64,000 bases of DNA, taken from NCBI RefSeq assembly GCF_020567425.1, contig NZ_JAJCVJ010000002.1, positions 62,001-126,000 on the forward strand, written 5' to 3'. The stretch is from Salinirubrum litoreum (GTDB lineage: Archaea > Halobacteriota > Halobacteria > Halobacteriales > Haloferacaceae). The position numbers and the translations under genes were made by a program. Below the pieces are notes generated by a model that ran no database searches, was not told where the DNA came from, and saw nothing but the letters and a program-made list of their open reading frames with translations. This document shows, piece after piece, positions 48,983 to 58,163 of this stretch. Numbering within the stretch: the first letter of the stretch is position 1; each line of letters begins with the position of its first letter.

Positions 48983-49204
48983 CTAGTCGGAGTTCGGTTG
49001 CGACTCTTCGTTCTCCTCCGTCTCCGACTGCGACTCGCGGAGCGTCTCGACCTCGTCTTCTAACGACTCGACGCGGGACTGGAGTTCGTCGGGTTCGGCG
49101 AGTTGCCTGACGAAGTGCAGGACGACGAGAGCCACGATGACCGAGAGCAAGACACCGACGAGGAGTAGCGGGACGAGCCACGCCGTCTCGGGCGGGAGTT
49201 GCAT
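48983..49204 (-). CDS. Single-pass membrane protein with coiled coil
   Basis: A 73-residue protein from ATG 49204 (MQLPPETAWLVPLLLVGVLL). One membrane segment (residues about 9-30) is followed by a predicted coiled coil (LQSRVESLEDEVETLRESQS). The final residues are Glu/Ser-rich. The 3' end is four bases from the guaB stop, in convergent orientation. No function is known; it resembles a small DUF7859-type haloarchaeal protein only in layout. Confidence 0.65.
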   Translation of the reverse strand: MQLPPETAWLVPLLLVGVLLSVIVALVVLHFVRQLAEPDELQSRVESLEDEVETLRESQSETEENEESQPNSD

Positions 49205-49333
49205 CGGGAGGGGCACGGGACGGGTGTGGACCCGGCTCGGAGTTTGACGTTTTGGTTCGGGACGGTGTTCTCGTTGAACGTGGATGCGACTGTGGTCGGA
49301 GCCTCCCCGTGACACTGCTGCTCGGTGGTAAGA

Positions 49334-49388
49334 CCGCGACTGCGACGGCAACAGTGACCGCGACAGCAACAGCAACCGCGACAGCACC
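49334..49388. repeat. Low-complexity CGCGACTGCGACGGCAACAG-type hexamer repeat
   Basis: Imperfect tandem hexamers (GCGACx/GCAACx) run for about 55 bases, reading CGCGACAGCAACAGCAACCG in the middle. It lies between two genes and has no coding support. Confidence 0.6.
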
Positions 49389-49509
49389 GCACCTCGTCCT
49401 CCCCAGCCTCGGGGACCTCTCCGCACCGCCCGGTCCCCTCCCTCGCGCGTCCCTCGTGCGCCGACTGCAACCACGAACAACTCGACTAACAATTCAGCTT
49501 ACCACAGAC

Positions 49510-49830
49510 TCACCAGTCAGAGGGGCTGGCGCGACCTCGTGTCGCGCCGACGGTCGCAGGGAGGCGCCTGCGCTGATCCGACTGGTCCACCGGGTGTTGC
49601 ATGCGTCCACGCAAGATCGCCGGGTGGGACTGAAAGGGGCCGACCGCTCGACCCGGCCCCGACGCCGGTACACTGGACTGAGGGCTGGCGGGACAAGCCC
49701 GCCAGCCCGAGGGAAGCGCGCCCCAAGTCGCGGCCGTCTTCGTGAGCGAAGCGAACGAAGGCTCGGGAGAGCTTGCCTCTCCCGGCGGTCAAGCGGTCGG
49801 GGGCTTTCACCCCTCGTCTTCCTCGACAGA
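49510..49830. ncRNA. Candidate structured RNA or repeat element
   Basis: A gene-free block with several strong hairpins: GGCGCGAC-ctcgt-GTCGCGCC (49528-49548), GGCTGGCGGG-acaag-CCCGCCAGCC (49683-49707, ten perfect pairs), CGGGAGA-gcttgcc-TCTCCCG (49764-49784), plus a GGGGCC/GGCCCC pair around 49636-49660. A motif CGGGTGGGACTGAAAGGGGC stands at 49621-49640. It lacks the conserved elements of SRP RNA and RNase P RNA as far as I can see. Strand is undecided; transcription is not shown. Confidence 0.35.
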
Positions 49831-49939
49831 TTCGGCGGAATGCAGTTCGTCGCCGACCGATTCGACGGGACCACCCAAACAGTTCGCCACCTCCTACCGG
49901 CGACGAAGCTATTAGTCCACCGACACCGTCTCTCCACCT

Positions 49940-50923
49940 GTGACTCCCCCGATCCACCTCGCGGACCTCCACAAGCACTTCGGGGACGTGAAAGCGGTAG
50001 ACGGCGTCTCGCTCGACGTCGAGCAGGGCGAGATCTTCGGGTTCCTCGGACCGAACGGCGCGGGCAAGTCCACGACAATCCGCACTCTGCTCGGCTTCCT
50101 CCACCCGACCAGCGGCACCGCGCAGGTGCTCGGCACCGACTCGACCGACCGCGCCGGGATGCGGGAGGTGAAGACCGAACTCGGCTACCTCCCGAGCGAC
50201 GTGCAGTTCCCGGAGGGCGTCACCGGTCAGCAGGCGCTGGACTACTACGCCGGCCTGAAGGGCGACGAACGCCGCGAGGACCTCCTCGCGGACTTCCCGG
50301 TCCCACTCGACCGGAAGATCAAGACCTACTCGCGGGGGAACCGCCAGAAACTCGCCATCGTACAGGCGTTCATGCACGAACCCGACCTGCTGGTGATGGA
50401 CGAACCGACCGCCGGCCTGGACCCCCTCGTGCAGGAGCGCTTCTACGACTTTCTGGACCGGGAGGTCGACCGCGGCGCGACCGTCTTCTTCTCGACGCAC
50501 ATCCTGAGTGAGGTGCGACGGATGTGCGAGCGCGTGGCGATCATCCGCGAGGGGCAACTCGTCACCGTCGAGGAGATCGACGATCTCCTGCGCAAGAGCG
50601 GGAAGGTCGTCCACGTCCAGTCGCCCGACCACCTCGCGCCCGACGACTTCCGGTTCGAGGGTGTCGCCAGCGTCGAGGCAGCGTCCGGTGGGCTTCGACT
50701 GCTCGTCACCGGCAACTACGACGAACTCCTCGACAGACTCACCGACTACCACGTGACCGACCTCGAGATGCGCGAGACCGCCATCGAGGACGTGTTCATG
50801 CACTTCTACGACGAGGGGACAGCCGATACACCGGAGGCGATGGATTCGGATACGGTCGACCCGACCGATCCGGACGGCGACCCCGACGCCGGGCAGACCG
50901 AGGAGGTGTCGCCGGATGTGTGA
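49940..50923 (+). CDS. ABC transporter ATPase (ABC-2 exporter type)
   Basis: A 327-residue ATPase starting at GTG 49940. Walker A GPNGAGKS (residues 37-44), Q loop LGYLPSDVQFPEGVTGQQAL, signature YSRGNRQKLAIVQAFM, Walker B LLVMDEPTAGLDP, and the switch histidine in FFSTHILSEVRRM. The signature has SRGN instead of SGGQ, as is usual in the CcmA/Nod-type exporters. A 100-residue C-terminal part with an acidic tail follows. It sits 48 bases upstream of its permease. Exported substrate unknown; homologues next to ABC-2 permeases often confer drug or antibiotic resistance or export peptides. Confidence 0.92.
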   Translation: MTPPIHLADLHKHFGDVKAVDGVSLDVEQGEIFGFLGPNGAGKSTTIRTLLGFLHPTSGTAQVLGTDSTDRAGMREVKTELGYLPSDVQFPEGVTGQQALDYYAGLKGDERREDLLADFPVPLDRKIKTYSRGNRQKLAIVQAFMHEPDLLVMDEPTAGLDPLVQERFYDFLDREVDRGATVFFSTHILSEVRRMCERVAIIREGQLVTVEEIDDLLRKSGKVVHVQSPDHLAPDDFRFEGVASVEAASGGLRLLVTGNYDELLDRLTDYHVTDLEMRETAIEDVFMHFYDEGTADTPEAMDSDTVDPTDPDGDPDAGQTEEVSPDV

Positions 50924-58090: not shown

Positions 58091-58163
58091 GGGACCGTGG
58101 GTTAGCTTGGTATACTTCGGGCCTTGGGTGCCCGTGACCCCGGTTCAAATCCGGGCGGTCCCA
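58091..58163 (+). tRNA. tRNA-Pro(UGG)
   Basis: A 73-nt gene without intron. Acceptor GGGACCG pairs with CGGTCCC, discriminator A. Anticodon stem CGGGC/GCCCG closes a 7-nt loop CTTGGGT with anticodon TGG. The T stem CCCGG/CCGGG holds TTCAAAT. The D arm is GGTTAGCTTGGTATACTT, partly weak. The CCA end is not encoded. Confidence 0.93.

Follow-up and report, generated by a model that had tools for sequence, protein, structure and literature searches.

BIME/REP sequences are palindromic intergenic units that often stand as head-to-head pairs at short spacing. The excerpted text of PMC3049150, in which BIMEs are named alongside BOX, describes the BOX elements of Streptococcus pneumoniae as short intergenic repeats scattered over the genome, whose ends are constant and whose inner modules vary in number; they are predicted to fold when transcribed and have been proposed to be mobile. 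For Haloquadratum, the excerpts of PMC3119063 describe PATEs, SMRs and MITEs as repeats that lack a transposase and contain palindromic or inverted-repeat sequence. In PATEs the palindromes lie near the termini and are related to IS605-type transposons, SMRs and MITEs have terminal inverted repeats, and the paper also reports that repeats were switched at one site and that cores were deleted (PMC3119063). A metatranscriptome study, in its excerpted text, lists conserved intergenic sRNAs of Halobacteria for which no function is reported (PMC7002113). Going by these partial accounts, the BOX elements and the Haloquadratum PATEs, SMRs and MITEs are the nearest known kinds to the element described here.

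The element was found in a 64-kb stretch of the Salinirubrum litoreum genome, called the window in the following, which comprises positions 62001-126000 of contig 2 in a 4.06-Mb genome of five contigs. The reading that we favour, with a probability of roughly 0.55, is that the window element belongs to an order-wide family of dispersed intergenic repeats of the BOX/BIME type, which would be selected to fold as RNA and are expanded here by nested hairpins. This reading is built on sequence comparison between copies, genomes and orthologous sites.

Architecture of the window element

The original prediction for this locus was a gene-free block of about 320 bases with four hairpins and a conspicuous motif, preceded by a hexamer repeat. 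A codon-usage gene caller written for the analysis finds no gene in the block. The flanking genes lie at 48983-49216 (- strand) and 49940-50923 (+ strand), which leaves 49216-49940 free of genes, and longer ORFs crossing the block are spurious by their codon-usage score. A coding block is ruled out by the absence of a called gene together with the insert lengths of the copies, which vary freely. The four hairpins are present with stems of 8, 11, 8 and 6 bp: an 8-bp hairpin read from the sequence at 49528-49535/49541-49548, a perfect 11-bp hairpin at 49682-49692/49698-49708, an 8-bp hairpin at 49764-49771/49777-49784 and a 6-bp hairpin at 49738-49743/49755-49760. The prediction had missed an outer inverted repeat of 23 nt, 49631-49653 with 49787-49809, which is 83% complementary and encloses the inner hairpins. 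Folded as RNA, the segment 49500-49830 reaches -181.7 kcal/mol on the + strand (z -4.62) and -183.5 kcal/mol on the - strand (z -5.75), and on either strand 0 of 100 dinucleotide shuffles are as good.

The conspicuous motif is GTGGGACTGAAAGGGGC at 49624-49640. It occurs once in the window, against a chance expectation of 0.07 matches (<=3 mismatches). The sole match of the covariance model of the family in the 64-kb window lies at 49621-49811 (38.8 bits, E 3.7e-06) and spans the full model, 1-121. These positions are the pan-haloarchaeal core of the element, while the genome-specific unit runs from about 49330 to about 49890; the predicted 320 bases thus lie inside the unit, which is larger. 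A tRNA-Pro (TGG) at 58091-58163 is the only match of Rfam or ARAGORN in the window.

In its 5' part, the unit has a tandem tract of 18/12/6-nt units (GCGACCGCGACAGCAACA) at 49336-49386, the predicted hexamer repeat; comparable tracts precede several other copies. Next comes a second repeat motif, GGCTGGGGAGG, which lies in inverted orientation at 49398-49408 on the - strand and is part of the composite unit of this genome. All further parts lie on the + strand. The 5' module at 49512-49620 (ACCAGTC ... GGCGCGAC hairpin ... GACTGGTCCACCGGG ...) is of type A, one of two alternative 5' modules in the genome, and contains the 8-bp hairpin GGCGCGAC / GTCGCGCC at 49528-49548, which is supported by sequence and fold. 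The conserved core at 49621-49811 contains the invariant 5' motif, known from motif searches of the genome and the order. Within it, the 5' arm of the outer stem, TGAAAG (49631-49636), pairs with CTTTCA (49804-49809) over a GGG/GGG internal loop. Stem P1 has its 5' arm CCGACCGCTCGACC at 49640-49653, assigned by arm pairing and covariation, and its 3' arm GGTCAAGCGGTCGG at 49787-49800, assigned as an inverted repeat. Between the arms lie the 11-bp inner hairpin module GGGCTGGCGGG / CCCGCCAGCCC (49682-49708), again an inverted repeat, and an optional extra module at 49738-49784 that holds the 6-bp and the second 8-bp hairpin and corresponds to module M5, found by pattern in 7 of 91 copies of this genome. 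The invariant 3' motif GGGGCTTTC (49800-49808) is followed by a genome-specific tail (ACCCCTCGTC...GACCGATTCGAC...) at 49809-49890, which other copies often repeat in tandem and whose far end is not sharp.

Copies within the genome

The genome contains 58 exact copies of GTGGGACTGAAAGGGGC and 92 at <=2 mismatches, compared with 0 forward and 1 reverse match for the reversed-pattern control. Analyses of the copies of this genome cover 90 loci holding 91 of the 92 copies, the remaining one being a contig 3 copy with 2 mismatches. In a copy, the motif is followed by stem P1, the interior hairpins, the complement of P1 and finally GGGGCTTTC, which is found 3' of the motif as an exact match in 79/91 copies and, including close variants, within 700 bases in 81/91. 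Inserts measure 2 to 356 nt, most often 108, and the module sets are mixed, which makes the interior modular. Eleven copies have inserts of <=29 nt, and several short ones resemble palindromes that have collapsed, for example GGGGC-CG-GGGGCTTTC. The covariance model finds 58 of the 90 loci at E 0.001 or better; the remainder have long or collapsed interiors.

The 5' module is of type A in 53 copies, of type B in 34 and different in 4. The P1 allele shows no dependence on this 5' type (permutation p 0.94, n 57) or on the presence of module M3a (p 0.54, n 59). The copies of this genome are mosaics. Of the 91 copies, 59 have the second motif GGCTGGGGAGG upstream and oppositely oriented, at a distance from the main motif that is mostly 208-370 bases; the own-genome control of 24% is inflated by loci that are centred on copies. 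In copies from other genomes, called foreign in the following, the second motif stands in the same orientation 12-132 bases upstream in 23 of 157, compared with 0.4% of random 200-base windows. A hairpin precedes GGCTGGGGAGG in the copies displayed.

Distribution in the order

The original prediction had been made dependent on the presence of the block in other haloarchaea. GTGGGACTGAAAGGGGC is found at <=1 mismatch in 265 of 392 genomes and in 69 of 95 genera of the order, with up to 147 copies per genome, and the reversed pattern remains near zero. The named genome collection holds at least 120 motif loci, nearly all of them from Halobacteria among the matches listed. What the genomes have in common is YGG-GTGGGACTGAAAGGGGC ... 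GGGGCTTTC (Y at 81%); the flanks are clade-specific. Four foreign copies (L181, L144, L160 and L142) retain motif, P1 and GGGGCTTTC around an interior of unrelated sequence and thus add to the cases in which interiors were replaced.

Searches by structure extend this distribution. Covariance model R1 has matches (E 0.001 or better) in 21 of 148 genomes of the phylum, all in the order of the window, and in 19 of 30 hand-picked motif-poor genomes of that order. Genome G299 has 0 motif matches and 93 model matches; three other motif-poor genomes (G168, G059 and G103) have 15, 13 and 11. The motifs of such divergent copies are altered, for example to CTCGAAGGGGC with GGGGCTTCG or to TTCCAAAGGG with GGGCTTTGG. 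By model, copy number per genome ranges from 0 to over 90, and some genomes have one copy only.

Among 272 motifs we count 22 head-to-head pairs with linkers of 19-31 bases, mostly CACCCG...CGGGTG. Examples are found at L104, L108, L120, L178, L185, L197, L202-L204 and L209, and none of the listed pairs comes from the genome of the window.

A plasmid or phage origin finds no support from blastn of the window copy, with 0 matches in 72,556 plasmid and 50,697 phage records, a weak test given that genomes share only short stretches. GTGGGACTGAAAGGGGC has 0 matches in viral contigs. Two viral matches to GCGGGACTGAAAGGGGC are not supported by the model, which gives no match at the motif and elsewhere reaches 16.6 bits (E 0.03).

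Structure and covariation

The copies share a shell that is composed of the outer stem TGAAAG/CTTTCA, the GGG/GGG internal loop, a variable but complementary P1 and internal loops around GACGCAAGCACC / GGAGCGCAGCGA. This shell encloses interior hairpins which differ in number and kind between copies. Folded as single sequences, five diverse copies all show this outer stem, the internal loop and P1. The terminal 10 bases of the insert form 9.1 of 10 pairs in 124 foreign copies, compared with 5.5 after shuffling of arms between copies (maximum 5.84 in 200). For 71 copies of the own genome the values are 9.0 and 7.56 pairs, respectively.

Three alignments were analysed, in which counts of sequences are not counts of independent events. 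A1, the basis of the model, comprises 69 of 81 compact foreign copies; it omits eight copies with odd interiors (L121, L142, L144, L160, L166, L167, L181 and L191) and four near-duplicates (L217, L218, L222 and L224). Its structure has 31 pairs, 23 of them with two-sided change, and 92.7% of the cells are standard pairs, compared with 72.6% after shuffling and 33-46% with partners slid. The covariation score is 0.477, compared with 0.146 for shuffled data, and 0 of 500 shuffles reach it. Inner pairs covary as well (for example CG 57 / GC 11 and CG 51 / UA 15), and several unpaired loop bases are conserved as strongly as pairs.

A2 consists of 30 divergent copies that were found by structure and lie outside model building. 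Here 27 of 31 pairs show two-sided change, with 92.5% of cells paired against 68.3% shuffled and 34-42% slid. The outer stem, invariant in A1, shows two-sided change in 4 of 5 pairs in A2 while 98.7% of its cells are still paired. A3 takes all 111 model matches from 100 of the 120 named loci with none dropped; being fitted to the model, it gives 95.0% paired cells (70.5% shuffled, 34-50% slid), two-sided change in 26 of 31 pairs and a covariation score of 0.462 against 0.118. The base-paired structure is kept by compensatory change in A1, A2 and A3, and we regard it as almost certain that the copies form an order-wide family of structured repeats.

Orthologous sites

One site compared between species lies upstream of trm1 in the genus to which Haloarcula japonica belongs; the comparison covers 30 of the 32 genomes that match there. 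The element is present in 7 of the 30. L215 shows a collapsed junction, GTGGGACTTTCTGG, and L239 a different, inverted copy together with a collapsed junction; the remaining genomes, including two close relatives (L214 and L221), are without element. Copies with the same flanks differ in P1, which is GAGGCGCTGG in L211, L216, L217 and L224, CGGTCGCTCGA in L213 and CGGCCGCTCGA in L223, and L212 has a larger interior. Comparing occupied with empty sites by eye, we could read no target-site duplication; the ends of the unit are not sharply defined.

Two further sites, H1 and H2, are orthologous by both flanks in another genus of the family to which the window belongs (15 genomes). H1 lies downstream of an M20 peptidase gene in 8 genomes and H2 between genes for phosphoglucose isomerase and a CAAX protease in 5. 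At H1, 97.3% of the element columns are invariant, compared with 43% (upstream) and 30% of the flanking 100 bases; at H2 the values are 87% and, in the flanks, 40% and 47%. Among the few changes at H1 is a C-to-T substitution in the first arm of P1 (L249 and L251), with which the motif strand still forms a G-U pair. Concerted evolution is unlikely at these sites because H1 and H2 of one genome differ. The simplest reading of the column comparison would be selection on the element at H1 and H2, and the strong constraint at H1 sits oddly with a pure passenger.

These sites bear on the best-surviving alternative, in which the copies, or those retained, are host small-RNA genes that are independently transcribed as regulatory or scaffold RNA and amplified in some genomes. 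Conservation of the structure across the order including its unpaired loops, orthologues at H1 and H2 with diverging flanks, and the retention of a single copy in some genomes all agree with such genes. Against this, we find no conserved promoter: the region upstream of H1 is only 43% invariant, and across genomes just YGG is kept directly before the motif. Model copy numbers from 0 to over 90 and the persistence of many collapsed copies are also difficult to reconcile with a gene family. Moreover, 5 of the 15 genomes in the genus with H1 and H2 have zero copies by motif; two of these (G346 and G242) also have zero by model, so the element is not essential. The suggestion of a haloarchaeal ncRNA in the original prediction is thus supported as far as an order-wide structured family, seen in covariance model and covariation, is concerned, while independent small-RNA genes appear improbable to us.

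RNA or DNA as the folded form

If palindromes were maintained in DNA alone, G-T and A-C mismatches would be expected in equal number. Foreign P1 arms contain 30 G-T and 8 A-C mismatches; P1 arms of the own genome, with 3 and 5, have no G-U excess. Over all pairs of A1, read on the motif strand, 70 G-U cells stand against 25 A-C cells. The corresponding values in A2, 22 and 13, do not differ significantly (p 0.18). In all these counts the cells are not independent. The excess of G-U over A-C leans towards folding of the motif strand as RNA, for a structure that was predicted with RNA rules, which themselves favour G-U. On balance we consider it fairly likely that RNA is the folded form under selection.

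The opposing explanation is an element acting at DNA level: a recombinase, a nucleoid protein or the replication machinery would recognise the DNA as a cruciform or as single-strand hairpins, in the manner of REP or PATE sequences, with no role for RNA. Random orientation relative to genes would fit this explanation, as would the P1 stems of the own genome without G-U excess and the head-to-head pairs, which are spaced as in BIMEs. It would also fit the distribution over contigs: the two largest (3.18 Mb) carry 89 of 92 copies and the remaining 0.87 Mb carries 3, a bias that may mark chromosome versus plasmids. Haloarchaeal PATEs and SMRs offer a precedent, being palindromic or inverted-repeat sequences without transposase in the excerpts of PMC3119063. 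The G-U excess in A1, the conservation of asymmetric internal loops and the absence of a Y1 transposase from 9 of 34 motif-rich genomes speak against a purely DNA-level element, and we judge it slightly less probable still than small-RNA genes. Quasi-palindrome correction can render stem arms complementary without selection. The complementarity of the P1 arms could have this origin; conserved unpaired loops, however, would not be kept by such correction.

Probable mobility and host enzymes

Spread as a non-autonomous element is likely, as the original prediction had offered among its options. About 90 copies, presence and absence at orthologous sites, collapse and interior replacement support it, while no mobilising enzyme was found in the searches for candidates. 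Y1 transposase (PF01797) shows no association in a weak test: 25 of the 34 motif-rich genomes have it, as do 24 of the 34 motif-poor ones. The 34 motif-poor genomes were chosen by hand for zero motif count and some are copy-rich by model, such as G299 with its 93 copies, which makes co-occurrence tests of this kind weak. A retroelement with an RVT_1 reverse transcriptase was rejected on 0 matches in the same 68 genomes. The Cas6 family PF10040 matches 1 of 34 and 3 of 34 genomes, in a scan that is uninformative since the control, Haloferax volcanii, was unmatched. A CRISPR repeat or crRNA-like element was rejected: there is no repeat-spacer array, and the copies of the own genome are solitary in the loci examined. 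The part GTGGGACTGAAAG (49624-49636) resembles the 3' end of archaeal CRISPR repeats.

Structured, multi-copy, intergenic sequences with a constant core and copy-specific flanks also recall the guide-RNA scaffold of an RNA-guided mobile system, such as the omega RNA of IscB/TnpB, left behind as solo copies. No ORF family recurs beside the copies as a master gene would, the largest genuine neighbour cluster being an ABC ATPase at 6 of 210 loci, and the flanks are clade-specific repeats instead of unique guides. We consider this origin very improbable.

Gene context

None of the 91 copies in the own genome lies inside a gene called by the codon-usage gene caller. Two of 157 foreign motif matches do, both bacterial (Prevotella L151 and Holophaga L174). 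The covariance model reports neither, although both are among the 100 loci scanned, and these two matches are chance. Neighbouring genes at the 91 copies are oriented (-,-) in 25 cases, (+,+) in 24, (+,-) in 21 and (-,+) in 19, with 2 at edges. With all four contexts about equally frequent and no recurring neighbour, the element is bound neither to one gene nor to the ends of transcripts in one orientation. The original prediction had also proposed a leader of the ABC exporter gene at 49940, and the block does lie directly upstream of this gene on the same strand, but a cis-regulatory leader of that or any other specific gene is refuted as a general explanation by some 90 copies next to unrelated genes in every orientation and has next to no probability left.

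Proposed mode of spread and function

For the preferred reading, dispersed repeats selected to fold as RNA, we propose the following course. An agent acting in trans would have spread the copies. Recombination through their shared ends may then homogenise and re-assort them, and palindrome slippage at short repeats would delete interiors. Upon read-through transcription from the host, the motif strand would fold as a rod, of which the constant shell and its internal loops are the likely protein-binding part and the variable middle is tolerated filler. Most copies would probably be near-neutral passengers, with some, such as H1, kept by selection. Given such selection-kept copies, a role at transcript level seems likely at least at H1, whether in the stability of the host RNA, in its processing or in the formation of its 3' end.

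A more far-reaching version is tentative: an order-wide haloarchaeal RNA family, not described before, with a constant shell (outer stem, GGG/GGG loop and purine-rich inner loops) and interchangeable hairpin cassettes at tens to >100 chromosomal sites per genome, in which the shell would serve as a ribonucleoprotein scaffold under host selection. The haloarchaeal cytoplasm contains multimolar potassium, and the invariant G-runs could form an RNA quadruplex there.

If the preferred reading is true, one structured family absent from Rfam makes up an appreciable part of the non-coding intergenic DNA in many haloarchaea, with up to the 147 motif copies per genome given above. It would be an archaeal counterpart of BOX and BIME whose RNA architecture is old enough to show compensatory changes throughout an order. 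Since haloarchaea can be manipulated genetically and several of them have RNA-seq data, the questions of mover and binder can be asked directly. Haloarchaea are also polyploid; the reassorting interiors would provide a natural system for gene conversion and palindrome instability in polyploid archaea.

Comparison with known systems

Both an Rfam scan and a covariance model had been suggested as checks in the original prediction. Rfam 15 gives no family at gathering score for the window element and 10 loci with diverse copies. The best weak match on the element is SCARNA21 (E 0.62, 15.9 bits compared with a cut-off of 60), and a known RNA family is ruled out by these scans. The covariance model, in contrast to the families in Rfam 15, matches: it could be built, recovers the window copy and finds new ones. 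Within open PubMed Central papers, a scope that leaves aside subscription papers, supplements and preprints, we found no account of the family or of TGGGACTGAAAGGGG, and the excerpts of PMC5852579, PMC4983044, PMC8305020 and PMC2841640 contain no description of the element.

Replacement and collapse of interiors at orthologous sites resemble the repeat switching and core deletion described for Haloquadratum in the excerpted account. Unlike PATEs, SMRs and MITEs, going by those descriptions, the whole element is one nested stem with a covarying, RNA-like architecture and is spread over the order. With BIME/REP sequences it shares palindromic, intergenic units and head-to-head pairs at short spacing. 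It differs from them in its unit, which measures about 110 nt or more and has internal loops that are conserved, and in a Y1 (RAYT-type) transposase that does not track copy number, the latter by a weak test. The likeness to BOX, as far as the excerpts of PMC3049150 describe it, lies in dispersed intergenic copies with constant ends and variable inner modules. No sequence relation to BOX is known, and unlike BOX the haloarchaeal element is archaeal and G+C rich, has an interior of nested hairpins, and its pairing is backed by covariation across the order.
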